The position numbers and the translations under genes are program-made. A stretch of 64,000 nt of DNA from Saccharopolyspora sp. SCSIO 74807 (GTDB taxonomy: Bacteria > Actinomycetota > Actinomycetes > Mycobacteriales > Pseudonocardiaceae), in assembly GCF_037023755.1 (NCBI RefSeq), contig NZ_CP146100.1, positions 6,354,501 through 6,418,500 on the forward strand. Reading direction: 5' to 3'. Positions 10,799-25,622 of the stretch are shown one piece after another; within the stretch, counting starts at the first letter, position 1; each line of letters opens with the position of its first letter. The notes below the pieces were generated by a model. The model did no database searches, was not told where the DNA came from, and worked only from the letters and a program-made list of their open reading frames with translations.

Positions 10799-11719
10799 AT
10801 GACGCTCAGCAAGGCCCGCGCGGTGGCGGACGCCGTGCTGTTCGAGGGTTACCTGCTCTACCCGTACCGCGCCTCGGCGTTGAAGAACCGGATGCGCTGG
10901 CAGTTCGGCGTGCTCGCGCCCCGCGGGGCCGGTGCGGCGGAGAACTGGTTCGCACGAACCGAATGCGCGCTCGAGGCCACCCCTTCGACCACAGTGGACA
11001 TTCGAGTCCGCTGCCTGCAACTGCGCCACCGCGGCGGAGAAAAGCCTTGGGACGAAGGAATCGTGCGCGAGTTCGCCGTGCCGGTGCCGTTGGCCGCGCT
11101 GGAACAACCACGAACCGTGATGTTCGAGCTGCCCGCCGGAACCGACCGCCGGGACGGTGCGAACTGGCACCGCTACCGCGTTCCCGGCCTGATCCACATC
11201 GAGAGCCGGCGCGTGGAGCACTCCCGCGACGTGCGCACCATCCAAGTCCGGGTGGAGAACCGATCCGAGTGGACACCGAGCGCGGCTGACGTGCGCGAGG
11301 ACGTGCTGCGCCGCTCGCTGGCTTCGGTGCACACCATGCTCGCCGTGCGCGACGGGAGCTTCCTCTCGCTGCTGGACCCTCCGAAGTGGGCGCAGGACAT
11401 CGCGGCCGCCTGCCGCAACACCAACACCTGGCCGGTGCTGGTCGGCGACCCGCAAGACCGGGACGTCGTGCTGTCCTCGCCCATCATCCTCTACGACCAC
11501 CCCGCCATCGCCCCGCAGAGCCCCGGCGACCTGTTCGACGCCACCGAGATCGACGAAATCCTCACCCTGCGCACGATGACCTTGACCGACGAGGAGAAGC
11601 GCGAGGTCCGCGAGACCGATCCGCGCGCCGCGGAACTGCTGGACCGCGTCGAGCAGCTGCCCGCTGAAGCCCTCGAACGACTGCACGGGACGCTGCGCTT
11701 CCCGCGGAACGAGCACTGA
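10799..11719 (+). CDS. Conserved hydrogenase-cluster protein of unknown function
   Basis: The product is a 306-residue soluble protein without signal sequence, membrane segment or cysteine cluster. It contains the stretch EGYLLYPYRASALKNRMRWQ near the N-terminus and an acidic, charged C-terminus. No catalytic motif was recognised. The ATG at 10799 is preceded by GGGGAGG. Its stop codon overlaps the start of the maturation protease gene (TGATG), which ties it to hydrogenase biogenesis. From memory, similar proteins precede the structural genes in other actinobacterial group 1h hydrogenase loci, where they are annotated only as hypothetical. An assembly or quality-control role is a guess. Confidence 0.75.
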   Translation: MTLSKARAVADAVLFEGYLLYPYRASALKNRMRWQFGVLAPRGAGAAENWFARTECALEATPSTTVDIRVRCLQLRHRGGEKPWDEGIVREFAVPVPLAALEQPRTVMFELPAGTDRRDGANWHRYRVPGLIHIESRRVEHSRDVRTIQVRVENRSEWTPSAADVREDVLRRSLASVHTMLAVRDGSFLSLLDPPKWAQDIAAACRNTNTWPVLVGDPQDRDVVLSSPIILYDHPAIAPQSPGDLFDATEIDEILTLRTMTLTDEEKREVRETDPRAAELLDRVEQLPAEALERLHGTLRFPRNEH

Positions 11720-12192
11720 TGCGCGTCCTGGTCGCCGGGATCGGGAACATCTTCCTCGGCGACGACGGTTTCGGCGTCCACGTCGTCGAACGCCTCGCCG
11801 AAAGCACGCCACCGGACGGGGTTCGCTTCGCGGACTTCGGAATCCGCGGGCTGCACCTGGCCTACGAGCTCCTCGACGGCTACGACGTGCTGGTACTCGT
11901 CGACGCCATCGCAGGACGTGGCACGCCCGGCGCGGTATCCGTGATCGAGGCGGAAATGCCCACCACCGCACCGGATGTGCTGGACGCGCACGGCATGACC
12001 CCCGACGTCGTGCTCGGCCTGCTGCGCAAACTCGGTGGCACGATCGGCAAAACGTTCGTCGTCGGATGTGAGCCGGTGGATTGTTCCGAAAGGATCGGTC
12101 TTTCCACTGCGGTAAACGCCTCAGTGGACCAAGCCGTCGATCTCACCCGCGGCCTCCTCGACGAGATCATCGACTGCCCAGCGGCATCCTGA
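11719..12192 (+). CDS. Hydrogenase maturation protease (HycI/HybD family)
   Basis: This endopeptidase removes the C-terminal tail of the [NiFe]-hydrogenase large subunit after nickel insertion. The 157-residue product begins with the family motif AGIGNIFLGDDGFG. It has the three expected nickel-sensing residues: an acidic residue at D15/D16 (the HybD Glu16 position), Asp62 (LVLVDAI) and His91 (LDAHGMTP). Length is typical (about 150-165). It overlaps the preceding gene and lies directly upstream of hhyS. Its expected substrate is HhyL, which ends with DPCLPCGVH followed by a removable 21-residue tail. Confidence 0.93.
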   Translation: MRVLVAGIGNIFLGDDGFGVHVVERLAESTPPDGVRFADFGIRGLHLAYELLDGYDVLVLVDAIAGRGTPGAVSVIEAEMPTTAPDVLDAHGMTPDVVLGLLRKLGGTIGKTFVVGCEPVDCSERIGLSTAVNASVDQAVDLTRGLLDEIIDCPAAS

Positions 12193-12325: not shown

Positions 12326-13399
12326 ATGAGTGCGACATCGGCCGAGCAGGACTCGCCGCCGCGGGCCATCGACGAACTGCACATCCTCTGGACCTCCGAG
12401 GGAATGAGCTGCGACGGCGACACGGTCTCGGTGACCAACGCGAAGCTGCCGAGCCTGGAGGACGTCGTGCTCGGCACCGTGCCGGGTCTGCCGAAGGTCC
12501 ACTTGCACAACAAGGTCCTCGCCTACGAAACCGGCGAGGACTTCATGACGGCGTTCCGCAAGGCCGAGCGCGACGAACTCGGGCCGTTCGTGCTCGTCGT
12601 GGAAGGCTCCATTCCGAACGAACGGATCAACGGCGACGGCTACTGGACCGCAATGGGCAACGACCCCGAAACCGGCGAACCCATCACGGTCAACGAATGG
12701 ATCGACCGCCTAGCGCCCAAAGCGTGGGCCGTGGTGGCGATCGGCACCTGCGCCACCTACGGCGGAATCCACGCCATGGCGGGAAACCCGACCGGCTCGA
12801 TGGGGCTTGCCGACTACCTCGGCTGGGATTTCCGCTCCGCGGGCGGACTTCCGATCGTCAACGTGCCCGGATGCCCGGTGCAGCCCGACAACTTCATGGA
12901 AACCCTGCTGTGGGTGCTGCACCAAGCCGCAGGGCTCGCCCCGACGATCCCGCTGGACGACCAGCTGCGGCCCACCTGGCTGTTCGGCAAGACCGTGCAC
13001 GAGGGCTGCGACCGAGCCGCCTACTACGAGCAGGCCGACTTCGCCGCCGACTACAACTCCCCCAAGTGCCAGGTGAAAATCGGCTGCTGGGGCCCGGTGG
13101 TCAACTGCAACGTCACCAAGCGCGGGTGGATGGACGGCATCGGTGGCTGCCCCAACGTGGGCGGGATCTGCATCGGCTGCACCATGCCCGGCTTCCCCGA
13201 CAAGTTCATGCCGTTCATGGACGAGCCTCCCGGCGCCACGTTGTCGTCCACACTGCTGCGCGCCTACGGCCCGTTCATCCGCACGATGCGCGGAATCACC
13301 AACCACACCGCGAACAAGGAACCCAAGTGGCGCCACAAGGAACCGGCGCTCACCAGTGGCTACGAGCCACGCTGGCCGAACGGCCGGGCACAGAGCTAA
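12326..13399 (+). CDS. hhyS: Actinobacterial-type (group 1h) [NiFe]-hydrogenase small subunit
   Basis: This iron-sulfur subunit carries electrons from the NiFe site of a high-affinity H2-oxidising enzyme. It has 357 residues and no twin-arginine signal, so it is cytoplasmic or membrane-peripheral. The proximal cluster site reads C29-D-G-D32, with C142 (GTCATYGG) and C183 (PGCPVQPDN). Aspartate at position 32 replaces the usual second cysteine, the known hallmark of this group. The distal cluster can be assigned to H225, C228, C248 and C254, and the medial cluster to C261, C275, C282 and C285. The ATG at 12326 follows GAGGTG. It is followed by hhyL 13 nt downstream. Confidence 0.96.
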   Translation: MSATSAEQDSPPRAIDELHILWTSEGMSCDGDTVSVTNAKLPSLEDVVLGTVPGLPKVHLHNKVLAYETGEDFMTAFRKAERDELGPFVLVVEGSIPNERINGDGYWTAMGNDPETGEPITVNEWIDRLAPKAWAVVAIGTCATYGGIHAMAGNPTGSMGLADYLGWDFRSAGGLPIVNVPGCPVQPDNFMETLLWVLHQAAGLAPTIPLDDQLRPTWLFGKTVHEGCDRAAYYEQADFAADYNSPKCQVKIGCWGPVVNCNVTKRGWMDGIGGCPNVGGICIGCTMPGFPDKFMPFMDEPPGATLSSTLLRAYGPFIRTMRGITNHTANKEPKWRHKEPALTSGYEPRWPNGRAQS

Positions 13400-13412: not shown

Positions 13413-15200
13413 ATGACCACCCACCCCACCACGGACACCGAGCGGCGCACCCTGGTCGACGTCGAATTCGATCCGATCACCCGGATCATCGGCAATCTCG
13501 GGATCTACACCAAAGTCGACTTCGCCAACGGAGAAGTCGCCGAGTGCAAGAGCACCTCGTCGCTGTTCCGCGGCTACAGCGTGTTCATGAAGGGCAAGGA
13601 CCCGCGCGACGCCCACTTCATCACCAGCCGGATCTGCGGGATCTGCGGCGACAACCACGCGGTTTGCTCGATCTACGCGCAGAACATGGCCTACGGCGTG
13701 AAGACTCCGCCGCTCGGTGAGTGGATCATGAACCTCGGCGAGGCCGCCGAGTTCATGTTCGACCACACCATCTTCCAGGACAACATGGTCTTCATCGACT
13801 TCTGCGAGAAGATGGTCGCCGAGACGAACCCGTCGCTGCTGCCCCGCGCGGAACGCAAGGACGCACCTCGCGGGGACGTGCACGGCTACCGCACCATCGC
13901 CGAGATCATGCGCGCCTTCAACCCGTTCGAAGGCGAGATGTACAAGGCGGCGCTGGAAATGTCGCGCATCACGCGGGAGATGTGCTGCCTCATGGAGGGC
14001 AGGCACGTCCACCCGTCGACGCTCTACCCGGGTGGCGTGGGAACCGTCGCCACACCGCAGGTATTCACCGACTACCAGGTCCGCCTGGTGCGGGTGCTGG
14101 ACTTCATCAAACGCGCGGTGGCGATGAACGACGACGTGTTCGACTTCTTCTACGAAGCGCTGCCCGGCTACGAAGAAGTCGGCAGGCGTCGCACCCTGCT
14201 CGGCTGCTGGGGCTGCTTCCAGGATCCCGGCGTCGTCGACTACTCGTACCGGAATCTCAACGCCGCGGGAAACGCGATGTTCGTGACGCCGGGAATCGTG
14301 GTGGACAATCAGCTGATCACCACCGACCTGGTGGACATCAACCTCGGGATGCGGATCCTGCTGGGCAGTTCGTACTACGAGGACTGGACGGCCGAGCACA
14401 CCTTCGTCGACCGCGATCCACTGGGGAACCCGGTCGACCAGCGCCACCCGTGGAACCAGACCACGTTGCCCGCACCGCAGAAACGCGACCTCGACGGCGG
14501 CAATTACAGCTGGGTCATGAGTCCGCGCTGGTACGACAAGCGCACCGACGACCACTTGGCGCTGGACACCGGCGGCGGACCGCTGGCCCGGCTGTGGGCC
14601 ACCTCGCTGGCCGGCAAGGTCAACACGCCCTACGTCCGCTCCACCGGCCACAGCGTGCAGATCGACCTGCCCCGCGGGCAGGGGCTGCCCGGCATGAGTC
14701 TGGAGTGGACACCGCCGAAGTTCCCGAACACCCTCGAACGCAACCGCGCGCGGATGTACTTCGTCGCCTACGCGGCCGCAATGGCGCAGTACTTCCTGGA
14801 CCGCGCGCTGGCCGAAGTCCGTTCCGGGAACACCAAGGTTTTCGAGGACTTCACGGTGCCCGACGAGGCCATCGGCGTCGGATTCCACGAGGCCGTGCGG
14901 GGTGTGCTCTCGCACCACATGGTGATCAAAGACGGCAAGATCGCCAACTACCACCCGTACCCGCCGACTCCGTGGAACGCCAGCCCGCGCGACACCTACG
15001 GCACGCCCGGACCGTACGAGGACGCGGTGCAGGGCCAGCCGATCTTCGAGGAGAACGGGCAGGACGACTTCAAGGGGATCGACATCATGCGCACGGTGCG
15101 CAGCTTCGACCCGTGCCTGCCGTGCGGTGTGCACATGTCCCTGGGCAACGGTCGCGTGCTGCGGAAATCGCACTCACCGATGTTCGGCCTCGGATCCTGA
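13413..15200 (+). CDS. hhyL: Actinobacterial-type (group 1h) [NiFe]-hydrogenase large subunit
   Basis: This is the catalytic subunit that binds the Ni-Fe(CN)2CO site and oxidises H2. The 595-residue product has the N-terminal L1 motif RICGICGDNH (C75, C78) and the C-terminal L2 motif DPCLPCGVH (C568, C571), which supply the four nickel/iron ligands. Behind His574 lies a 21-residue tail expected to be cut off by the maturation protease encoded upstream. AAGGAG at 13398-13403 precedes the ATG. The family (with HhyS) is known for scavenging atmospheric H2 in starved or sporulating actinobacteria. No cytochrome b subunit is encoded nearby, so the electron acceptor is not evident here. Confidence 0.96.
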   Translation: MTTHPTTDTERRTLVDVEFDPITRIIGNLGIYTKVDFANGEVAECKSTSSLFRGYSVFMKGKDPRDAHFITSRICGICGDNHAVCSIYAQNMAYGVKTPPLGEWIMNLGEAAEFMFDHTIFQDNMVFIDFCEKMVAETNPSLLPRAERKDAPRGDVHGYRTIAEIMRAFNPFEGEMYKAALEMSRITREMCCLMEGRHVHPSTLYPGGVGTVATPQVFTDYQVRLVRVLDFIKRAVAMNDDVFDFFYEALPGYEEVGRRRTLLGCWGCFQDPGVVDYSYRNLNAAGNAMFVTPGIVVDNQLITTDLVDINLGMRILLGSSYYEDWTAEHTFVDRDPLGNPVDQRHPWNQTTLPAPQKRDLDGGNYSWVMSPRWYDKRTDDHLALDTGGGPLARLWATSLAGKVNTPYVRSTGHSVQIDLPRGQGLPGMSLEWTPPKFPNTLERNRARMYFVAYAAAMAQYFLDRALAEVRSGNTKVFEDFTVPDEAIGVGFHEAVRGVLSHHMVIKDGKIANYHPYPPTPWNASPRDTYGTPGPYEDAVQGQPIFEENGQDDFKGIDIMRTVRSFDPCLPCGVHMSLGNGRVLRKSHSPMFGLGS

Positions 15201-16588: not shown

Positions 16589-17247
16589 ACGCGCCGAACG
16601 CGGACACGGAGCTCGCATTCGCCGTGACCGAAGCGCGCGCGGCGGAACTCGCGGCGGTTCCCACGCTGCGCTTCGCGATCCGGGTTTCGGACACGACGGG
16701 CGTGCCGATCCAATCGATCACGCTGAGCACCGCCATCCGCATCGCGCCGGCGAAGCGACGTTACAGCCAGCAGCAAGCCGCGCTGTTGGCCGACCTCTTC
16801 GGCGCACCGTCGCGGTGGGTCGACACGATGCGTCCGCTCACCTGGGCACGTGTGACCACTGTGGTGCCCGCGTTCACTGGTGAGATCGTCGCTGATCTGC
16901 CGGTGGAATGCGGGCACGACAACGAGCTCGCGGTCGCGAAGTACTTCCACGCCGTGCGCGCAGACGAGGTGCCGCTGCAATTCTTGTTCAGCGGCACCAT
17001 ATTTCACACCGACCGGCAAGGATCGCTTCGCACCCGGCGCATTTCCTGGTCGAGCGAGGCGATCTTCGCTCTCCCGGCGGAAGTGTGGCACGACGCCGTC
17101 TCCGGCCCGCACGGTCACCGGTGGCTCCGGCTGTCCGGAGACCGGTTCGACGCGCTGTGCGCCTACCGGTCGCGACGCGGTTTGACGGATTGGGACGCGG
17201 TGGTGGATGCGCTCACCGCCGGCGAAGAGAACGGAACCGCCACATGA
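16585..17247 (+). CDS. DUF6084-like hydrogenase-cluster protein
   Basis: The product is a 220-residue, mainly beta-strand-rich soluble protein of unknown function (TLRFAIRVSDTTGVPIQSI..., PLQFLFSGTIFH). It has no signal peptide or membrane helix and only two scattered cysteines. The GTG at 16585 overlaps the previous stop codon, and its own stop overlaps the next start (ATGA). I associate this family (DUF6084, from memory) with actinobacterial hydrogenase loci. The beta-rich sequence with a central FSGTIF stretch suggests a binding or assembly role and not enzyme chemistry, as no catalytic motif is visible. Confidence 0.68.
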   Translation: MNAPNADTELAFAVTEARAAELAAVPTLRFAIRVSDTTGVPIQSITLSTAIRIAPAKRRYSQQQAALLADLFGAPSRWVDTMRPLTWARVTTVVPAFTGEIVADLPVECGHDNELAVAKYFHAVRADEVPLQFLFSGTIFHTDRQGSLRTRRISWSSEAIFALPAEVWHDAVSGPHGHRWLRLSGDRFDALCAYRSRRGLTDWDAVVDALTAGEENGTAT

Positions 17248-17879
17248 TCCGCGATCGAGGTTGGCGCGCCGGAACCCGCGTTCGGCTGCGCCCATCGCAG
17301 CGGGCCGACATCGTCGACCTGGCGCTGACGGGCCGGACCGCGCTGGTGGATCGCATTGAGGTCGGCGCCGACGGACGGATCCACGTCGTGGTCGTACTCG
17401 ATGACGACCCCGCCCGCGTCCTCGGGCCGATGAGCCAGATCGGACACCGCTTCTTCTTCACACCGGAAGAACTCGAGCGGCTCGACGAGCCCGGCGACAC
17501 CGGCCCACGAACACTCATCGCAGGGCTGGGTGACGGATTCAATCCGGCCGACGTATTCGGGTCCACAGTGGTACAGCGGCTGCGCACCGCCGAGCTCCCC
17601 GGGCGCGTCGACGTCGACGACTTCGGCATCCGCACCGGCGACCTCGTGCACGCGGCACGCGGATACGACGCGGCGCTCGTAGCGTGTACCCGGCGACTCG
17701 GGCACCAGCCCGCGACGGTGCGGCTGGTCGACTGCGAGGAACTCCCGCACGTGCACCACGTCGTCGCGTACGAACCCGGCACCGGTGCGGTCCCCGAAAC
17801 CGCCATCGGCGAGGCGGTGCGGCTCATCGAAGAACTCACGGCCGAACTCGCCGAATCGGCCACGCCAAGCGAGAGGTGA
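17244..17879 (+). CDS. Degenerate hydrogenase-protease-like protein with N-terminal beta domain
   Basis: This 211-residue protein has two parts. Residues 1-85 form a beta-rich domain with RVRLRPSQRADIVDLALTGR and GPMSQIGHRFFF. Residues 91-200 align with the cluster's own maturation protease: AGLGDGFNPADVFGSTVVQRL matches AGIGNIFLGDDGFGVHVVERL, and VDVDDFGIR matches VRFADFGIR. The acidic residue equivalent to D16 is kept (D103), but the central metal-binding Asp62 is replaced (Cys148 in VACTRR). A histidine near the expected third ligand remains (HVHHV, 169-172). It is therefore probably a non-cleaving relative that could bind the large subunit or nickel. The start codon overlaps the previous stop (ATGA). 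Confidence 0.72.
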   Translation: MIRDRGWRAGTRVRLRPSQRADIVDLALTGRTALVDRIEVGADGRIHVVVVLDDDPARVLGPMSQIGHRFFFTPEELERLDEPGDTGPRTLIAGLGDGFNPADVFGSTVVQRLRTAELPGRVDVDDFGIRTGDLVHAARGYDAALVACTRRLGHQPATVRLVDCEELPHVHHVVAYEPGTGAVPETAIGEAVRLIEELTAELAESATPSER

Positions 17880-18130: not shown

Positions 18131-18745
18131 ATGTCCTGGCAATCCACCGACAGCGCCGGGCAGGCGCTGCAAGACCTGTTCGACCGCCGCGTCGAGCCGG
18201 TCGAACGCCTGCTCGGGGACGCCGAAGCGGTGGCGCGGGCCTGCCACGACATGGCACGGCGATTTCATGCGGGCGGCAAGCTCATCGTGTCCGGAAACGG
18301 GGGACCGAGCACGGACGCGCAGCACGTCGCCGTGGAATTCGTGCACCCGGTGATCGTCGGCAAGCGCGCGCTGCCCGCGTTGTCGCTGACTTCGGACGTC
18401 GCCACCGTCACCGGGATCGCCCGCGGCGCCGGGATCGACGAGGTGTTCGCGCATCAGGTCCGGTGCTTGGGCGAGCCCGATGACATCGCCCTCGGGATCT
18501 CGGCCGACGGCGACTGCGAGAACGTGCTGCGCGGGCTCGTCGAGGCCGACCGGCGCGGACTGCTGAGCATCGGGCTAGCGGGCGGCGAAGGCGGCGCGAT
18601 GGCGGCCACCGGACTGGATCACGTGCTGGTCGCGCACTCCGACGATCCCCGTGTCGTCAAGGAAGTGCACGTGACGATCTACCACGTGCTGTGGGAGCTC
18701 GTGCACGTCTTCCTCGAGCAGCCCGGCGTCTGGGAAGCCGCATGA
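18131..18745 (+). CDS. SIS-domain protein, GmhA-like, phosphate loop altered (SIS-1)
   Basis: The 204-residue protein has the GmhA (sedoheptulose-7-phosphate isomerase) fold signature, VSGNGGPSTDAQHVAVEF. It keeps the equivalents of E. coli GmhA His61, Glu65 and His180 (H65, E69, H185). Two other elements are lost. The phosphate-binding STSGNS loop reads SADGDC (residues 124-129), and the glutamine of RIQE is Lys177 (RVVKE). Its neighbour SIS-2 has the opposite pattern. The ATG follows GAGGTGG. It sits inside the hydrogenase operon and overlaps the next gene by 4 nt. A heptose-phosphate role would be odd here, so a task in hydrogenase maturation or regulation is inferred from context. Confidence 0.75.
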   Translation: MSWQSTDSAGQALQDLFDRRVEPVERLLGDAEAVARACHDMARRFHAGGKLIVSGNGGPSTDAQHVAVEFVHPVIVGKRALPALSLTSDVATVTGIARGAGIDEVFAHQVRCLGEPDDIALGISADGDCENVLRGLVEADRRGLLSIGLAGGEGGAMAATGLDHVLVAHSDDPRVVKEVHVTIYHVLWELVHVFLEQPGVWEAA

Positions 18746-18963
18746 GCGCCGATCTCGGCAACTCCTGCGAGTCCGCCGAGTCCTGCGTCACTTGTTCGGA
18801 CCAAGCCGTTGCAGTGCGCGTGGAGCGGCTGCTCGGTTCCGGGTTGGCCATCGTGTCGACCACGAACGGCCGCGAAGAGATCAGCGTCGGCCTGGTGAAC
18901 GCCCGCGAGGGCGACACGGTGCTCGCGCACGCCGGCGAGGCCATCGCAGTCCTGAAGGAGTAG
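18742..18963 (+). CDS. HypC-like small protein lacking the N-terminal Met-Cys
   Basis: This 73-residue protein aligns over most of its length with HypC/HybG. TCSDQAVAVRVERL matches the HypC N-terminus MCLAIPGEIVEVRG. The later section ISVGLVNAREGDTVLAHAGEAIAVL matches VINIGLLSEQ...GDWVLIHVGFALSAI. In true HypC the essential cysteine is residue 2. Here the equivalent is C18 behind a 17-residue extension with two further cysteines (C9, C15). It lies between the two SIS genes and is coupled to both by overlaps (ATGA and TAGTG). It may be a specialised chaperone for the hydrogenase, or a partner of the SIS proteins. Confidence 0.7.
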   Translation: MSADLGNSCESAESCVTCSDQAVAVRVERLLGSGLAIVSTTNGREEISVGLVNAREGDTVLAHAGEAIAVLKE

Positions 18964-19655
18964 TGACCACTGTGGAACAATCCGCACCCGCCGGGGCGGA
19001 AATGCTGTATCCGTTCCTGTCGCCGACCATCGCGGACATCGACGCGCTGCTGGTGGAAGTGCGCGAATCGACCAGGTCGAAAGCACGCGAGATCACCGAG
19101 CTGCGGGCGGAATTCCTGCGCCGCGACGGGGCTCGCATCCTCGCCTGCGCCGAAGCGATGGCCGAGCGGTTCGCCGGTGGCGGCCGGTTGCTGGCGTTCG
19201 GCAACGGCGGCAGCTCCACCGACGCGCAAGACCTCGCGAGCCTGTTCCTGCACTCCGACCCGGACCGGCGCTCGCTTCCCGCGTTCGGACTCACCAGCGA
19301 CATCGCCGTGGTGACCGCGCTGTCCAACGACGTCGGCTTCGACGTGGTGTTCGCGCGCCAAATCGGAGCGTTCGGGCGCGCGGGCGACATCGCCATCGGA
19401 TTGTCCACCAGCGGGAATTCCGCGAACTTGCTCGACGGTTTCGAGGCAGCTGCCCGGATGGGGATGTTGACCGTGGGGATCGCCGGAGACCACGGCGGAC
19501 GAATGGCGGAATCCGCGAGCATCGAGCACCTCTTCGTGATCCCGTCCACCTCGGTGCACCGCATCCAGGAGGCGCAGACCACGCTGTACCACGCCCTGTG
19601 GGAACTGACCCTGCTCGCGCTCGGCGAGCCCGGAACGCTAGCGGGGAGAAGCTGA
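18963..19655 (+). CDS. SIS-domain protein, GmhA-like, catalytic His/Glu lost (SIS-2)
   Basis: This 230-residue paralogue of SIS-1 has an extra roughly 28-residue N-terminus. It keeps the phosphate-binding loop (GLSTSGNSAN, near 147-154), the RIQE glutamine (Q202) and the C-terminal histidine (H210). In the first motif, however, NGGSSTDAQDLASLF, the GmhA His61 and Glu65 positions are Asp90 and Leu94. It should therefore be unable to catalyse the GmhA reaction alone. The GTG at 18963 overlaps the preceding TAG; GTG at 18972 is an alternative start. Its stop codon overlaps the hypC start. Together with SIS-1 it may form a mixed oligomer with shared active sites. Confidence 0.75.
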   Translation: MTTVEQSAPAGAEMLYPFLSPTIADIDALLVEVRESTRSKAREITELRAEFLRRDGARILACAEAMAERFAGGGRLLAFGNGGSSTDAQDLASLFLHSDPDRRSLPAFGLTSDIAVVTALSNDVGFDVVFARQIGAFGRAGDIAIGLSTSGNSANLLDGFEAAARMGMLTVGIAGDHGGRMAESASIEHLFVIPSTSVHRIQEAQTTLYHALWELTLLALGEPGTLAGRS

Positions 19656-19937: not shown

Positions 19938-21065
19938 ATGCGTTTCGTCGACGAATACCGGGACGCCGCGAAAGCTCGTGCACTGGCTGCCGAGATCGCC
20001 AAGCTCGCGGACCCGGCGCGGGAGTACCGGTTCATGGAAGTCTGCGGCGGGCACACGCACGCGATCTACAAGCACGGCATCGAGGACTACCTGCCGGAGA
20101 ACATCACGCTCGTGCACGGGCCGGGATGCCCGGTGTGCGTGATCCCGATGGGACGTGTCGACGACGCGATCCACATCGCGCGGCAGCCCGAGGTCTTGAT
20201 GACCTCGTTCGGGGACATGATGCGCGTTCCCGGTGGCGACGGGAACTTCTTCGATTCCAACGCGGAAGGCACCAACATCCGCATGGTGTACTCCCCGCTC
20301 GACGCGCTGAAGGCCGCGCGGCACAACCCCGGCCAGCACGTCGTGTTCATGGCGATCGGGTTCGAGACCACCGCCCCGTCGACCGCGATGACGCTGCTGC
20401 GCGCGCAGCAGGAAGGGCTGAAGAACTTCTCGGTCTTCTGCAACCACGTGACGATCATCCCGGCGATCAAGGCGATCCTGGACTCACCGGACCTGCGGCT
20501 GGACGGATTCCTCGGGCCCGGTCACGTGTCCACCGTGATCGGTTGCGCACCGTACCGGTTCATCGCCGAGGAGTACGGGAAACCACTGGTGGTGGCCGGC
20601 TTCGAGCCGCTCGACGTGCTGCAGTCGATCCACCTGCTGCTGGTGCAACTCGCCGAGGGCCGCAGCGAGGTCGAGAACCAGTACCGCAGGGTCGTGCCGT
20701 GGCAGGGAAACCGGGCCGCGCTGGAAGCCATTTCCCGCACGATGCGGCTGCGGCCGTACTTCGAGTGGCGCGGTCTCGGCTTCATCTCGCACTCCGCGCT
20801 GCGGCTGCGCGAGGAGTACTCGCGGTTCGACGCGGAAGAGCGCTTCGAGCTGCCCGGAGTGCGAGTGGCGGACCCGAAGTCCTGCCAATGCGGTGAAGTC
20901 CTCAAGGGAGTGCTGAAACCGTGGGAGTGCAAGGTGTTCGGCACCGCCTGCACACCGGAGACACCGATCGGGACCTGCATGGTCTCCCCCGAGGGCGCTT
21001 GCGCGGCCTACTACAACTTCGGCCGGTTCAGCCGGGAACGCGTCCGGGAAGCGAGCAAAGCATGA
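19938..21065 (+). CDS. hypD: Hydrogenase maturation protein HypD
   Basis: HypD is the iron-sulfur scaffold on which the Fe(CN)2CO group is assembled together with HypC and HypE. The 375-residue product shows the conserved motifs MEVCGGHTHAIYKHG, VHGPGCPVCVIPMG, FGDMMRVPG, GFETTAPSTA and GPGHVSTVIG. The C-terminal cysteine set for the [4Fe-4S] cluster is present (CQCGEVLKG, WECKVFGTACTPETPIG, SPEGACAAYY). Length matches the family. It starts 10 nt after hypC with GAGGAGG upstream and overlaps hypE by 4 nt. Confidence 0.97.
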   Translation: MRFVDEYRDAAKARALAAEIAKLADPAREYRFMEVCGGHTHAIYKHGIEDYLPENITLVHGPGCPVCVIPMGRVDDAIHIARQPEVLMTSFGDMMRVPGGDGNFFDSNAEGTNIRMVYSPLDALKAARHNPGQHVVFMAIGFETTAPSTAMTLLRAQQEGLKNFSVFCNHVTIIPAIKAILDSPDLRLDGFLGPGHVSTVIGCAPYRFIAEEYGKPLVVAGFEPLDVLQSIHLLLVQLAEGRSEVENQYRRVVPWQGNRAALEAISRTMRLRPYFEWRGLGFISHSALRLREEYSRFDAEERFELPGVRVADPKSCQCGEVLKGVLKPWECKVFGTACTPETPIGTCMVSPEGACAAYYNFGRFSRERVREASKA

Positions 21066-22150
21066 CCGAGAACCCGACCCGCGATGCGGAAGAACTCGTG
21101 CTGCACCGGATCGAGCGCGCCCGCGGAGCCCGGCCACGGATCAAGGAAGAGCGGATCACCCTCGCGCACGGCGCGGGCGGCAAAGCCACCCAGACCTTGG
21201 TCGAGGCGCTGTTCCTGGCCGAGTTCCGCAACGAGTTGCTCGAACCGCTCGGGGACGGTGCCGAAATCTCGTTGCCGCACAACAGGATCGCGCTCACCAC
21301 GGATTCGTTCGTGGTGTCCCCGCTGTTCTTCCCCGGCGGGAACATCGGTGATCTCGCGGTCAACGGAACGGTCAACGACCTCGCCGTCTCCGGCGCGGAT
21401 CCGCTCTACCTGTCGGCCGGCTTCGTGCTCGAGGAAGGATTTCCGGTGGCCGACCTGAAGCGCGTGGTGCGCGCGATGTCCGCAGCCGCGACCGCCGCCG
21501 GGGTCCGCATCGTCACCGGGGACACGAAGGTCGTGGACAAGGGCAAAGCGGACGGCTGCTACATCAACACGACCGGGGTCGGCGTCCTGTCCGGTTCCCA
21601 CAGGCTCGGGATTTCGCAGGCACAGCCGGGCGATGCAGTGCTGGTGACCGGGCCGATCGGCGCGCACGGAGCGACGATCATGCTCGCCCGGGGAGAACTC
21701 GACATCGAAGCCGACATCGTTTCGGACACCGCCGCGCTGCACGGGCTCGTCGCGAGCCTGTTGGACGACGTCCCCGGGGTGCGCGCGCTGCGGGACGCCA
21801 CCCGCGGTGGAGTCGCCACCGTGCTCAACGAGATCGCGCGAGCCTCGGAAGTGGCCGTCGTCCTCGACGAAGGTTCGGTCCCGGTCGGCGGGCAGGTACG
21901 CGGAGCCGCGGAACTGCTCGGCATCGATCCGCTCTACGTCGCCTGCGAAGGGCGCGCCGTTGTCGTCGTCGACGGCTCGGAATCCGAAGCGGCACTGGCG
22001 TCGATGCGGAAACACCCGCTGGGGGCGGAATCGGCGGTGATCGGCCGGATCGGCGCCGACCCGCCGGGGATGGTGCTGGCCAACACCGCGTTCGGCGGTA
22101 CGCGGGTGGTGGACCTGCTCGTCGGCGATCCGCTGCCGCGGATCTGCTGA
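21062..22150 (+). CDS. hypE: Hydrogenase maturation protein HypE
   Basis: HypE dehydrates the carbamoyl group that HypF places on its C-terminal cysteine, producing the thiocyanate that donates CN to iron. The 362-residue product (family usually about 330-350) has a roughly 30-residue N-terminal extension before ITLAHGAGGKATQ. The PurM/AIR-synthase-like fold motifs follow (GGNIGDLAVNGTVNDLAVSGA, GDTKVVDKGKADGCYIN, RDATRGGVATVLNEIA). The protein ends in PRIC, the required C-terminal cysteine. The ATG overlaps the hypD stop codon. Confidence 0.97.
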   Translation: MTENPTRDAEELVLHRIERARGARPRIKEERITLAHGAGGKATQTLVEALFLAEFRNELLEPLGDGAEISLPHNRIALTTDSFVVSPLFFPGGNIGDLAVNGTVNDLAVSGADPLYLSAGFVLEEGFPVADLKRVVRAMSAAATAAGVRIVTGDTKVVDKGKADGCYINTTGVGVLSGSHRLGISQAQPGDAVLVTGPIGAHGATIMLARGELDIEADIVSDTAALHGLVASLLDDVPGVRALRDATRGGVATVLNEIARASEVAVVLDEGSVPVGGQVRGAAELLGIDPLYVACEGRAVVVVDGSESEAALASMRKHPLGAESAVIGRIGADPPGMVLANTAFGGTRVVDLLVGDPLPRIC

Positions 22151-22174: not shown

Positions 22175-22504
22175 GTGCACGAACTCGGCATCACCCGCGG
22201 TGTCGTCGAAGCCGTGCTCGATGCGGCCGGTGATTCCCGGATCATCCGCCTGCGGTTGGAGATCGGCCGGTTGTCCGGGGTGGTGACGGACTCGGTGCGG
22301 TTCTGCTTCGAGCTGGCCGCGGAGGGCACTTCGCTGGCCGGGGCGCGGTTGGAGATCACGGAACCGGGCGGGCGGGCGGAATGCCGGGCGTGCGGGCGCG
22401 AGTTCGAAGTGGACTCGGTGCTCGCGCTGTGTTCCTGCGGCAGTGCGAACGTCGCGCTGATCGCCGGACAGGAACTTCGGATCAAGGAAGTCGAGATGGC
22501 GTGA
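22175..22504 (+). CDS. hypA: Hydrogenase nickel metallochaperone HypA
   Basis: HypA delivers nickel to the large subunit together with HypB. The 109-residue product starts (M)HELGITRGVVEAVL, with the nickel ligand His2. The zinc domain reads C-R-A-C-G, then C-S-C-G-S, so the second zinc pair is C-x-C instead of the usual C-x2-C. This may be a lineage trait. The GTG at 22175 follows GGAGG, and the gene ends directly before the hypB start. Confidence 0.93.
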   Translation: MHELGITRGVVEAVLDAAGDSRIIRLRLEIGRLSGVVTDSVRFCFELAAEGTSLAGARLEITEPGGRAECRACGREFEVDSVLALCSCGSANVALIAGQELRIKEVEMA

Positions 22505-23341
22505 ATGTGCGCGACATGCGGGTGCTCGGACGGGTCGGCGCGGGTGGACGGCCGGGCAGTCGGTGCCGCTGATGGGATCATCCCGGAACACCGGCAAGGC
22601 CTCGAAATCGAGCATGAGAACGGCGTAGACCATGGCCACGGGCACGGGCACGAACGGTCCACATCGGACTCCGCTACCTTGCTGCTGGAGCAGCGGGTGC
22701 TGGCCAAGAACGACGGCCTCGCGCGCCGCAACGCGGCGTGGTTCGACGACGCGGGTCTTCTGGTGCTCAACGTGATGAGTTCGCCCGGTTCCGGGAAGAC
22801 GACACTGCTCGCGCGCACCCTCACCGAACTCGGACCGAAAATCGCGGTCTCCGTGGTGGAGGGAGACCAGGAAACCGACTTCGACGCCGACCGACTGCGC
22901 GCCACCGGCCGCGACGTCGTGCAGATCAACACCGGCGCGGGATGCCACCTGGACGCCGAAATGGTCGCCGATGGCGTCCGAACCCTCCGCCCCGAACCTC
23001 GGTCGGTGATCTTCGTGGAGAACGTCGGGAATCTGGTCTGCCCGGCGTTGTTCGAGCTCGGCGAGCAGCACCGGATCGTGGTGGCCTCGACCACCGAAGG
23101 CGAGGACAAGCCGCTGAAGTACCCGCACATGTTCCGCGCGGCGAACATGGTGCTGCTCAACAAGATCGACCTGTTGCCGCACCTGCGGTTCGATGTGGAC
23201 AGGTTCGTGCGCAATGCGCAGCTGGCCAACCCCGCCGTGCGAGTGCTGCGCGTTTCAGCGGATACCGGTCAGGGGATGCGTGCCTGGTACGACTGGCTCA
23301 GCGAGCGGGTGGACGAACTGGCCGCGAACACCCTCAGCTGA
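22505..23341 (+). CDS. hypB: Hydrogenase nickel-incorporation GTPase HypB
   Basis: HypB is a GTPase that drives nickel transfer. The 278-residue product begins with the high-affinity nickel motif M-C-A-T-C-G-C and has a short histidine run (DHGHGHGHE, about residues 42-50) that may store nickel. The G domain follows: P-loop SSPGSGKTT, switch VEGDQETDFDADR, INTGAGCHLDA with the metal-binding Cys/His pair, ENVGNLVCPA, and LNKIDLLP for guanine specificity. It is the last plus-strand gene of the locus, and its 3' end overlaps that of the convergent hypF by 8 bp. Confidence 0.96.
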   Translation: MCATCGCSDGSARVDGRAVGAADGIIPEHRQGLEIEHENGVDHGHGHGHERSTSDSATLLLEQRVLAKNDGLARRNAAWFDDAGLLVLNVMSSPGSGKTTLLARTLTELGPKIAVSVVEGDQETDFDADRLRATGRDVVQINTGAGCHLDAEMVADGVRTLRPEPRSVIFVENVGNLVCPALFELGEQHRIVVASTTEGEDKPLKYPHMFRAANMVLLNKIDLLPHLRFDVDRFVRNAQLANPAVRVLRVSADTGQGMRAWYDWLSERVDELAANTLS

Positions 23342-25622
23342 TCCGGGCTCCGGCAACGACGGCCTGCCCCAGGCTGATGCCGCCGTCATTGGCAGGTACC
23401 CGTGAGTGCACCAGAACTCGGAACCCGTTGTGCTCCAACTCGGTGACCGCGCGGTTCAAAAGCAGAGCGTTCTGGAAAACCCCGCCGGACAGCGCCACCG
23501 ACGACAAGCCGGTGGATTCCCGCAGCAGCGAGCAGGTTTCTGCGATCAGACGGGCGACCGAGTTGTGGAAGCGGGCCGCCACGGACGGTGCAGGGATTCC
23601 CGCCCGCAGTTCGGTGACCACCGAACGCACCAGATCGGTGCTGCGCAGCACGAGCTTCCCACCGTCCACAACGGACCCGGGAGGTTCGCCGAGTTCGCCG
23701 GTTTCGCCAGGGTCGGCGAGCTGTTCGAGCTCGATCGCGGCTTGGCCTTCGTAGCCGACCTGCTCGCGCACCCCGAGCAGGGCCGCGACGGCGTCGAACA
23801 ACCTTCCCGCGCTCGAGGTTCGCGGACACAGCTCCGGGTGGCCTGCGAGTTCGGTGACCGCGCGCCAATTCTGCCTGCGCTGCGCCAGTTCCGGCTCGGG
23901 ACCGTCCAAGTCCGGGCAAGCGCGCAAGAACGCCGCGGCCATCCGCCATGGTTGCAGGATCGCGGCCCGGCCACCCGGCATCGCCACCGGCTCCAGGTGC
24001 GCGGCGCGCTGGAAACCGGCCAAGTCCGCGATCAGGAACTCACCGCCCCACATCGTCCCGTCGGTGCCGAAGCCCAAGCCGTCGAACGCCACGCCGAGCA
24101 CCGGCCCCGCCTCCTCGTTGTCCGCGAGACACGCGGCGATGTGCGCATGGTGGTGTTGCACCCCGATCAACTCGATGTCCGGGACCAACTCGGTCTCCAG
24201 GAGGTGCTGGGCGTGCTTGGTCGAGAGGTACTCGGGATGCAGGTCGTGCGCCACCACCTGCGGGTCGATGCCGAACAGCTTGCGGAAGTGCTCGATGCCC
24301 GCCCGGAAGGAACGCAACGTCTCGAAGTTCTCCAAGTCGCCGATGTGCTGCGAGACGAACACCTCCCTGCCGCGGGCGAGCGCGAAAGTGCTCTTCAGCT
24401 CAGCACCGCAGGCCAGCACCGCATGCGGGAACTCCCACGGCACCCGCACCGGCTCCGGAACGTAGCCGCGGGAACGGCGCAACGGCATCGGTCGGCCGCG
24501 GAACATCCGCACGACGGAATCGTCGGCGCGGATGTGGATCTCGCGGTCGTGGCCGAGGAACTCGTCGGCGATGCCGGAGAGGGCGCCGAGCACCTCGGCG
24601 TCCTCGTGGCAGATCGGCTCGTCGGACACGTTTCCGCTGGTCAAGACGATCGGTCCGGCGAACTCGCGGAGCAGCAAGTGGTGCATCGGGGTGTAGGCGA
24701 CGAGCACGCCGAGCTGCCGATTGCCCGGCGCCACCGAAGGGGCCAAGCCGGTGCTCTCCAGGCGATCCAGCAGGACGATCGGCGCTCGCCACGAGCTCAA
24801 CACGCGCTCCGCGGCCTCGTCGACCGCGCACAGCCGCCTGGCTTCACGCACGCTCGGAACCATGACGGCGAACGGCTTCTCCGAGCGGTGCTTACGGGCG
24901 CGCAGCTCCGCCACCGCGGCCTCCGCTCGGGCATCGACGGCCAAGTGGAAGCCGCCGATGCCCTTCACCGCCAGGACCTCGCCGCGGCGCAACGCTTGCG
25001 CGGCCGCTGCGATCGGGTCGCCCGGGATGGGAGCTCCCGCGGCGTCGGACAGGTTCAGAGCCGGACCGCAAGCGGGGCAGCACACCGGCTGCGCGTGGAA
25101 CCGGCGGTCGACCGGATCGTCGTACTCGGCCGCGCACGCCGGGCACATCCCGAAATCGGACATCGTGGTCGCAGGGCGGTCATACGGGATGTCGCGGACG
25201 ATCGTGAAGCGCGGGCCGCAATGCGTGCAGTTGGCGAACGGGTGGGCGAAGCGGCGATCCGCCCGGTCGGTCAGCTCGCGCAGGCACTCCGTGCACGTGG
25301 CGCTGTCCGGCGGGACGAAGGTGCTGCGGGAATCCTCCCGGCGGCTCAGCACGATCCGGAACCCGCGCACACCGAGCGGGGGCAGCGCAACGACGTCGAT
25401 GCCGTCCACCACCGCCATGGGCGGCGCCTGGTCGCGCAGATCACCGAGGAACACCTCGATCTTCGCGGCGGGACCTTCCACGTCGATGAACACTCCGTGG
25501 CCGTCGTTGCCGACGTGCCCGCCCAAACCGAGGCGGGAAGCCAACGCGTGGGTGAACGGCCGGAAACCGACGCCCTGCACGACACCCGCCACCCGGACCC
25601 GCCTGCGCACCCGATCGACCAC
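23334..25622 (-). CDS. hypF: Carbamoyltransferase HypF
   Basis: HypF makes the CN ligand precursor: it activates carbamoyl phosphate with ATP and transfers the carbamoyl group to HypE. The 762-residue protein has the full layout. An acylphosphatase domain comes first (VAGVVQGVGFRPFTHALA), then a double zinc-finger region (CTECL, CTHCGPRF, CPACAAEYDD, CCPACGP). A YrdC-like domain (GGFHLAVDARAE, RKHRSEKPFAVM) precedes a Kae1-like carbamoyltransferase domain (QHHHAHIAACLAD, FDGLGFGTDGTMWGGEF, SGGVFQNALLL). The GTG at 25622 has no strong ribosome site. Unlike the other hyp genes it is on the minus strand, so it has its own promoter, probably near 25.65 kb, facing the acyltransferase gene. Confidence 0.96.
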   Translation of the reverse strand: MVDRVRRRVRVAGVVQGVGFRPFTHALASRLGLGGHVGNDGHGVFIDVEGPAAKIEVFLGDLRDQAPPMAVVDGIDVVALPPLGVRGFRIVLSRREDSRSTFVPPDSATCTECLRELTDRADRRFAHPFANCTHCGPRFTIVRDIPYDRPATTMSDFGMCPACAAEYDDPVDRRFHAQPVCCPACGPALNLSDAAGAPIPGDPIAAAAQALRRGEVLAVKGIGGFHLAVDARAEAAVAELRARKHRSEKPFAVMVPSVREARRLCAVDEAAERVLSSWRAPIVLLDRLESTGLAPSVAPGNRQLGVLVAYTPMHHLLLREFAGPIVLTSGNVSDEPICHEDAEVLGALSGIADEFLGHDREIHIRADDSVVRMFRGRPMPLRRSRGYVPEPVRVPWEFPHAVLACGAELKSTFALARGREVFVSQHIGDLENFETLRSFRAGIEHFRKLFGIDPQVVAHDLHPEYLSTKHAQHLLETELVPDIELIGVQHHHAHIAACLADNEEAGPVLGVAFDGLGFGTDGTMWGGEFLIADLAGFQRAAHLEPVAMPGGRAAILQPWRMAAAFLRACPDLDGPEPELAQRRQNWRAVTELAGHPELCPRTSSAGRLFDAVAALLGVREQVGYEGQAAIELEQLADPGETGELGEPPGSVVDGGKLVLRSTDLVRSVVTELRAGIPAPSVAARFHNSVARLIAETCSLLRESTGLSSVALSGGVFQNALLLNRAVTELEHNGFRVLVHSRVPANDGGISLGQAVVAGARIS

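Follow-up and report, generated by a model that had tools for sequence, protein, structure and literature searches.

Complementary GmhA-like SIS proteins in hydrogenase maturation gene clusters and a putatively divided active site

In the 64,000-nucleotide stretch of Saccharopolyspora sp. SCSIO 74807 DNA analysed here (the window), two genes for GmhA-like SIS proteins, SIS-1 and SIS-2, are found among hydrogenase maturation genes, and the residues that make up a GmhA active site are divided between their products. Taken as a whole, this arrangement is probably best explained by a SIS-1/SIS-2 hetero-oligomer with a split site, acting with a HypC-like protein in assembly of the Fe(CN)2CO group. 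As to its parts, on the sequence comparisons given below a composite SIS-1/SIS-2 site is very likely, and a role of the SIS pair in the maturation of aerobic hydrogenases is likely. The relevant features of the window are as follows.

12326..13399 (+), HhyS, small subunit of the hydrogenase (start inferred)
13413..15200 (+), HhyL, large subunit of the hydrogenase, of group 1h type (start inferred; 71 % identical to the C. necator counterpart)
18131..18745 (+), SIS-1, GmhA-like SIS protein with the metal-ligand share, 204 aa
18323..18346 (+), SIS-1 codons for H65, E69 and, specific to this family, H72 (EFVHP), from the residue alignment
18742..18963 (+), HypC-like small protein with a CVTCSD motif and a HAGEAI C-terminus (Pfam HupF_HypC, 1.1e-7)
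18963..19655 (+), SIS-2, GmhA-like SIS protein with the substrate share, 230 aa
19404..19421 (+), SIS-2 codons for the phosphate-binding loop STSGNS (residues 148-153)
19566..19568 (+), SIS-2 codon for Q202, by alignment the equivalent of the neighbour-subunit Gln of GmhA (excerpt of PMC5387315)
19655..19927 (+), canonical HypC, MCLAIPG (TIGR00074, 8.9e-23, 80 bits, above cut-off)
19938..21065 (+), HypD, from its position and likeness to related clusters with an annotated hypD
21062..22150 (+), HypE, with a putative start taken from the reading frame
22175..22504 (+), HypA
22505..23341 (+), HypB
23334..25622 (-), HypF, convergent

On the + strand the order is HhyS, HhyL, a set of hydrogenase-linked genes that includes those for DUF5947 and DUF6084, then SIS-1, the HypC-like gene, SIS-2, hypC, hypD, hypE, hypA and hypB. 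DUF5947 and DUF6084 genes are also present in the cluster on C. necator pHG1, which we take to be that of a group 1h 'AH' hydrogenase, and the identity of HhyL to the pHG1 large subunit extends over 580 residues. Successive genes overlap at the junctions, as ATGA (SIS-1/HypC-like), TAGTG (HypC-like/SIS-2) and TGATG (SIS-2/HypC), and the four genes from SIS-1 to hypC therefore look translationally coupled. Coupling of the two SIS genes with the HypC-like gene had been claimed in the initial annotation, and the first two overlaps agree with this. The SIS-1 of the window is 100 % identical to that in the Saccharopolyspora sp. HNM0986 locus.

Some neighbouring genes were also recorded. A 304 aa protein of no known family is encoded beside the hydrogenase genes (10805-11716), and a look-alike, judged by eye, is found at L172:6734-7720, adjoining the SIS pair of genome G063. 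There are two protease-like genes, one named HupD-like (11719-12192) and a second (17244-17879) with a weak hydrogenase-protease match of 28.6 bits against a cut-off of 47.45. At L117:2078-3133 and L187:5241-6320, the gene preceding that for the large subunit is publicly annotated as 'hydrogenase expression protein HypE', and from its position this is probably the small subunit.

In Neisseria GmhA, and likewise in the B. pseudomallei enzyme, one monomer binds the zinc ion through H61, E65 and H183, and the adjacent monomer adds Q175 (excerpt of PMC5387315). The catalytic Glu and Gln come from different monomers and a Ser/Thr loop binds the substrate phosphate (excerpt of PMC7705670), and each site lies at an interface of three chains, with half-site behaviour reported (excerpt of PMC5705639). 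SIS-1 has H65, E69 and H185, together with H72, and carries SADGDC (124-129) at the loop and K177 at the Gln position. SIS-2 has the loop STSGNS, Q202 and H210, and carries D90 and L94 at the positions of the metal-binding His and Glu. The residues named for both proteins in the initial annotation were all in place when the translations were re-checked. The residues retained by SIS-1 and by SIS-2 are exactly the shares of one zinc site that come from two adjoining GmhA monomers. Because each sister protein keeps the opposite half of the ancestral active site, the two probably function only together. The likeness to GmhA (TIGR00441; PDB 2x3y and 5i01) covers the fold, the H/E/H ligands with the Gln of the neighbour, the STSGxS loop and the location of the site at a subunit interface. 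However, GmhA is a homotetramer with all of these residues in one chain, whereas SIS-1 and SIS-2 divide them between two chains, SIS-1 has an additional invariant His after the Glu, and the SIS genes are linked to hydrogenase maturation.

Both proteins fall in the SIS domain superfamily (Pfam SIS_2, PF13580, 44.8 and 61.1 bits; gathering cut-off 27). Against the NCBIfam GmhA equivalog TIGR00441, for which the cut-off is 209.45 bits, SIS-1 scores only 123.4 and SIS-2 133.2 bits. The additional His, three residues after the metal-binding Glu, is present in the SIS-1 of all 97 pairs described below and in the product of all six single SIS genes, but in none of 11 outgroup sequences, which indicates that these are not plain GmhA. 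Hence the heptose isomerase of which the initial annotation had spoken is a putative one, given the scores below the equivalog cut-off and the extra invariant His, although the homology to GmhA is clear. DiaA, which has the GmhA fold in common with SIS-1 and SIS-2, is also matched by both, with scores lower than those of most GmhA entries. DiaA is a DnaA-associating SIS protein that is not an isomerase, so that this fold can lose catalysis, and we know of no link between DiaA and hydrogenase.

For the family as a whole, the fetched loci gave 223 SIS domains, which were aligned using PDB 2xbl as the ruler, and positions are given in B. pseudomallei GmhA numbering. Pairs were defined as adjacent SIS domains, with the first and second gene assigned by position. 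This gave 97 distinct pairs, 68 and 27 from two genome sets and two from plasmids, and left 13 domains unpaired. At 99.5 % identity in both proteins no pair matches another, the pairs form 49 groups at 80 % SIS-1 identity, and the window is represented by an identical relative (L032). In the first gene (SIS-1), H64 and E68 are found in 97/97 pairs and H183 in 96/97, with one gap. In the second gene (SIS-2), S123 and S125 are each found in 95 of the 97, and T124, S128 and Q175 each in 96, while position 64 is never H and position 68 is never E. The second-gene H183 is less constant (88/97), being replaced by Y in five pairs and by N, Q or D in one each, with one gap. A complete composite site, namely H/E/H from the first gene with STSGxS and Q from the second, is present in 94/97 pairs. 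The reverse composite was found in 0/97, and neither protein carries the whole metal and phosphate site in its own chain, as GmhA does, in any of the 97. The three remaining pairs are L019, which contains an assembly N-run, L021, which has a broken reading frame, and L020, from G063, which has an altered loop; HypD was sought in G063 and not found. Chance as the source of the complementarity was rejected on the absence of any reverse or self-complete site. Thus, by alignment to the GmhA structure, the complementary losses that the initial annotation had described for the window hold across the family.

SIS-1 also has conserved changes of its own, namely SxDGxC at the loop (D in 82 %, C in 84 %) and K at the Gln position (92 %), and SIS-1 may therefore do more than supply ligands. 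In a divergent clade of seven pairs (L024-L029 and L119) the SIS-1 loop is both shortened and altered, and five of the seven SIS-2 have Y in place of the last His; as judged from these sequences, the split has advanced in the same direction in this clade. The SIS-1 Lys (K177 position) is accompanied by an acidic SIS-2 residue (D90 position) in 80/88 pairs, compared with 1/8 where the Lys is absent, an association that is confounded by ancestry, and the two residues perhaps form a salt bridge that replaces the metal at the dead site. Distances within SIS-1 and SIS-2 are correlated (r 0.84), a value obtained with no species control and confounded by shared ancestry.

An undivided form was found in six proteobacterial clusters, those of C. 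necator pHG1, Afipia, Mesorhizobium, Novosphingobium, Bradyrhizobium and Methylocystis, in which a single SIS gene directly precedes hypD. Its product is publicly annotated only as 'SIS domain-containing protein'. The residues D, H, E, Q and H are present in 6/6, which includes all four metal ligands, and the loop is STSGNS in five and STSGNA in one. Like SIS-1, all six contain the EF[VL]HP motif, and like SIS-2, five of the six have an LYPF N-terminus (the Novosphingobium protein, as annotated, is without it). Unlike either, the single form has the whole site in one chain and belongs to a branch that predates the duplication. This placement is from a maximum-likelihood tree of 64 domains rooted on the 11 outgroup sequences, which comprise five annotated sedoheptulose 7-phosphate isomerases, 2xbl, two annotated SIS proteins, one unannotated sequence and two further genomic sequences. 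Support is 100 for SIS-1, 98 for SIS-2, 100 for the single SIS, 97 for all three relative to the outgroup, and 95 for SIS-1 with SIS-2. In this tree the single form is the first to diverge, and the SIS-1/SIS-2 pair stems from one duplication. The initial annotation had held that canonical SIS genes in other group 1h clusters would count against a mixed oligomer. Taken literally, such genes do occur in proteobacteria, but by the tree they represent the un-duplicated ancestral state. As the single SIS is placed before the duplication, it explains the split rather than refuting the mixed oligomer.

SIS-1 and SIS-2 are also fused in nature. One-frame SIS-1::SIS-2 fusions were found in Actinomycetota and in Thermus (L019/L100, L022, L023, L074, L075, L091, L176 and Thermus L122), where L019 and L100 are the same genome by sequence, with an N gap. 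The double-SIS frame scored in L079 was not counted as a fusion because its HypC-like gene lies in another frame, though its pair may be among the 97. In Sulfobacillus, an unannotated SIS-1::SIS-2 frame (L123:9854-11090) is interrupted near its end. SIS-2 is directly downstream of SIS-1 in 78/80 loci (best 80 of 544), and the two exceptions end at a scaffold gap (L056) or a contig edge (L064). An AlphaFold2 model of the L075 fusion, built on a 3-row alignment, has a pTM of 0.83 and a mean pLDDT of 80.1. In Foldseek searches with this model, the single halves match GmhA, and the whole chain matches the double-SIS proteins GlmS and glucokinase regulatory protein (among the matches listed, query TM 0.47-0.61, rmsd 4.7-9.3). 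The predicted fold fits a defined dimer-like packing, and the composite site itself is a proposal. Together, the natural fusions and the correspondence of the residue shares to those of GmhA subunits lend strong comparative support to the mixed oligomer first suggested in the initial annotation.

SIS-1::HypC-like fusions also occur, in L024-L029 and in L119, from an M. intracellulare plasmid. The public annotation of the L119 fusion (L119:12016-12726) is HypC-family chaperone only, and Pfam misses the SIS part at E 0.01. In the window, the separate 73 aa HypC-like protein matches Pfam PF01455 (HupF_HypC) with 32.3 bits against a gathering cut-off of 28.5, which places it in the HypC/HupF family and confirms that a gene of this kind lies between the SIS genes, as had been claimed. 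The protein starts MSADLGNSCESAESCVTCSD, and the Cys directly after Met (MC..PG) that marks HypC proper is absent; an NCBIfam search with it gave no match. In the best 80 of 544 loci, 72 HypC-like sequences were found, 68 of them with a CxTC[SG]D motif, and the gene lies between SIS-1 and SIS-2 in 71/80. In several fusion lineages (L074, L122, L123, L174 and L176) it lies between hypC and hypD. HupF and HoxL are HypC-family proteins listed among the ancillary factors of O2-tolerant hydrogenases (excerpt of PMC12134894). The middle protein belongs to the same HypC-like family but differs from HypC, HupF and HoxL in having C-x-T-C-[SG]-D and no MC start, and in adjoining or being fused to SIS-1.

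The SIS pair is linked to one type of HypD. In the phylum sample of 396 genomes, HypD was detected at 1e-40 in 199, and 58 genomes, among the matches listed, have HypD of the type in question, defined as at least 60 % identity to the window HypD; fragments such as those in G573 and G582 are outside the 58. An SIS-2-type gene (>200 bits) is present in 52 genomes among the matches listed, and the 200-bit and 60 % thresholds were both set after seeing the lists. Among the matches listed, 47/58 genomes with the HypD type carry the SIS-2-type gene, compared with 5/338 others, and in 35 of these 47 both genes are on one contig with starts no more than 14,743 bases apart. The order and phylum samples have genomes in common, and the SIS list for the order sample was chosen partly with knowledge of HypD, so its contingency value was not used. 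No SIS-2 was detected in 11/58 genomes with the HypD type (phylum sample, among the matches listed). Six of these (G385, G406, G443, G529, G613 and G621) involve low contig coordinates or incomplete genomes, and in G074, G394, G408, G415 and G418 the absence looks genuine. A search of G074 found no SIS-2, and the fusion there has lost the H/E/H motifs from its SIS-1 part, so that by sequence the two have decayed together.

HypD was also sought in eight genomes with pairs, six of which were chosen because the fetched locus contained no HypD and no close HhyL. A HypD, 72-86 % identical, is present in seven of the eight, and none was found in the genome of L097. Plasmid records of other phyla show the same linkage of the SIS pair to HypD. 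The M. intracellulare cluster and several of the plasmid clusters are, from their gene content, presumably of group 2a. In L046, L077 and L170, SIS pairs are found beside a third hydrogenase type, with a large subunit only 38-40 % identical to HhyL.

Earlier records of these genes are brief. The legend of one figure marks a 'putative phosphoheptose isomerase (gmhA)' within group 1h clusters (excerpt of PMC5900883), and one table includes a SIS-domain cluster, of 68 genes, in the vicinity of hydrogenases (excerpt of PMC12727194). In the open-licence literature searched, we found no discussion of the function, pairing or divided sites of hydrogenase-linked SIS proteins and no biochemistry on SIS-1/SIS-2.

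We propose that duplication of a hydrogenase-linked GmhA-like enzyme was followed by division of its inter-subunit active site between SIS-1 and SIS-2. SIS-1 would give the metal ligands, two His and one Glu with the extra conserved His beside them, and SIS-2 the phosphate-binding loop and the Gln. The two proteins would assemble, probably as alpha2-beta2, into an obligate hetero-oligomer in which two sites are composite, for metal and sugar phosphate, and the two reciprocal ones are dead. The HypC-like protein would join this heteromer in acting on HypC, HypD and HypE, the machinery by which Fe(CN)2CO is built for the aerobic hydrogenase of group 1h and for related enzymes.

Other readings of the pair were considered. 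The SIS proteins could form a non-catalytic sensor of sugar phosphate that gates maturation according to carbon status, with the metal-binding residues kept for structure. The resemblance of the modelled fusion to glucokinase regulatory protein, among others, and the precedent of DiaA would fit. However, a sensor needs the phosphate site and not the metal ligands, yet the H, E and H of SIS-1 are essentially invariant, and we regard a sensor as unlikely. Alternatively, the composite site could donate iron (or nickel) to HypCD or serve it as a redox chaperone, with the sugar phosphate needed only for positioning. This would make use of the invariant ligands and the extra His after the Glu, as well as the C-x-T-C motif of the HypC-like partner, and the source of the cofactor iron is stated to be unresolved (excerpt of PMC10847431). 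Nevertheless, SIS-2 keeps its phosphate loop and Gln almost as strictly (95 or 96 of 97) as SIS-1 keeps the ligands, which points to a substrate, and a metal donor seems rather improbable. It is very unlikely that SIS-1 and SIS-2 are independent, neofunctionalised homo-oligomers with complementarity as a by-product of decay. The conserved changes peculiar to SIS-1 are not random decay and speak for independence, but the partition tracks the published subunit boundary, runs in one direction in 94/97 pairs and persists in the fusions, and the further losses in the divergent clade continue it. Finally, an ordinary heptose isomerase of envelope or secondary metabolism that lies in hydrogenase clusters by accident is scarcely credible and was rejected, since the clear homology to GmhA has to be set against the HypD linkage in the phylum sample and on plasmids of other phyla, the fusion to the HypC-like protein, the family-specific His, and the decay of SIS-1 in G074 where its partner is missing.

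If the split-site hetero-oligomer acts in Fe(CN)2CO assembly, the step that it most likely serves is, tentatively, the conversion of a sugar phosphate into the CO ligand, or into a precursor of its carbon, in aerobes that lack HypX. HypX, a formyl-tetrahydrofolate decarbonylase, is the aerobic supplier of the CO ligand to HypCD (excerpts of PMC12134894 and PMC6802093); it generates CO in the presence of air, and for anaerobes the source of CO is described as unresolved (excerpt of PMC12134894). The SIS proteins are unrelated to HypX and may be a functional counterpart of it. With C. necator HypX as the query and scoring of the 3 to 5 best candidates in each genome, matches at 1e-40 were found in 8/396 genomes of the phylum sample, in 6/199 HypD carriers (193/199 were without a match), and in only one (G331) of the 58 genomes that, among the matches listed, have the SIS-linked HypD type. 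In the order sample, HypX was found at 1e-30 in 18/249 genomes. HypD of at least 60 % identity occurs in 39 genomes of this sample, and one of them (G118) also has the HypX match. A full-length HypX match without HypD was seen in 15 of the 18, indicating HypX-like proteins outside hydrogenase maturation. The idea that SIS replaces HypX is weakened by these counts. Throughout the sampled genomes that carry HypD, HypX is rare, so that its absence is not specific to SIS carriers, and the CO idea stands as a hypothesis. C. necator has both HypX and a SIS gene, which counts against a CO step, and we know of no precedent for the decarbonylation of a sugar phosphate. That SIS-1, SIS-2 and the HypC-like protein form a second aerobic CO-ligand synthase, in which a sugar phosphate at the composite metal site would yield the carbonyl carbon, is a doubtful possibility. 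Speculatively, a metal-bound enediolate would be cleaved oxidatively and the CO passed to HypCD via the HypC-like protein. Oxidative cleavage of an enediolate is catalysed by nickel acireductone dioxygenase, and its ligand set of three His and one Glu would resemble H64, E68, H71 and H183 of SIS-1 (B. pseudomallei GmhA numbering).

Hydrogenases of groups 1h and 2a oxidise hydrogen from the atmosphere (excerpt of PMC6883350). In the open-licence literature, we found no account of how the CO ligand is made in group 1h and 2a organisms without HypX, and no description of the hydrogenase-assembly step that the SIS pair would serve; a conserved, HypC-linked protein of sugar-phosphate type sits at this point. 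The pair also appears to be a clear case of a gene duplication that divided one inter-subunit active site, with the undivided single-gene form persisting in another phylum.
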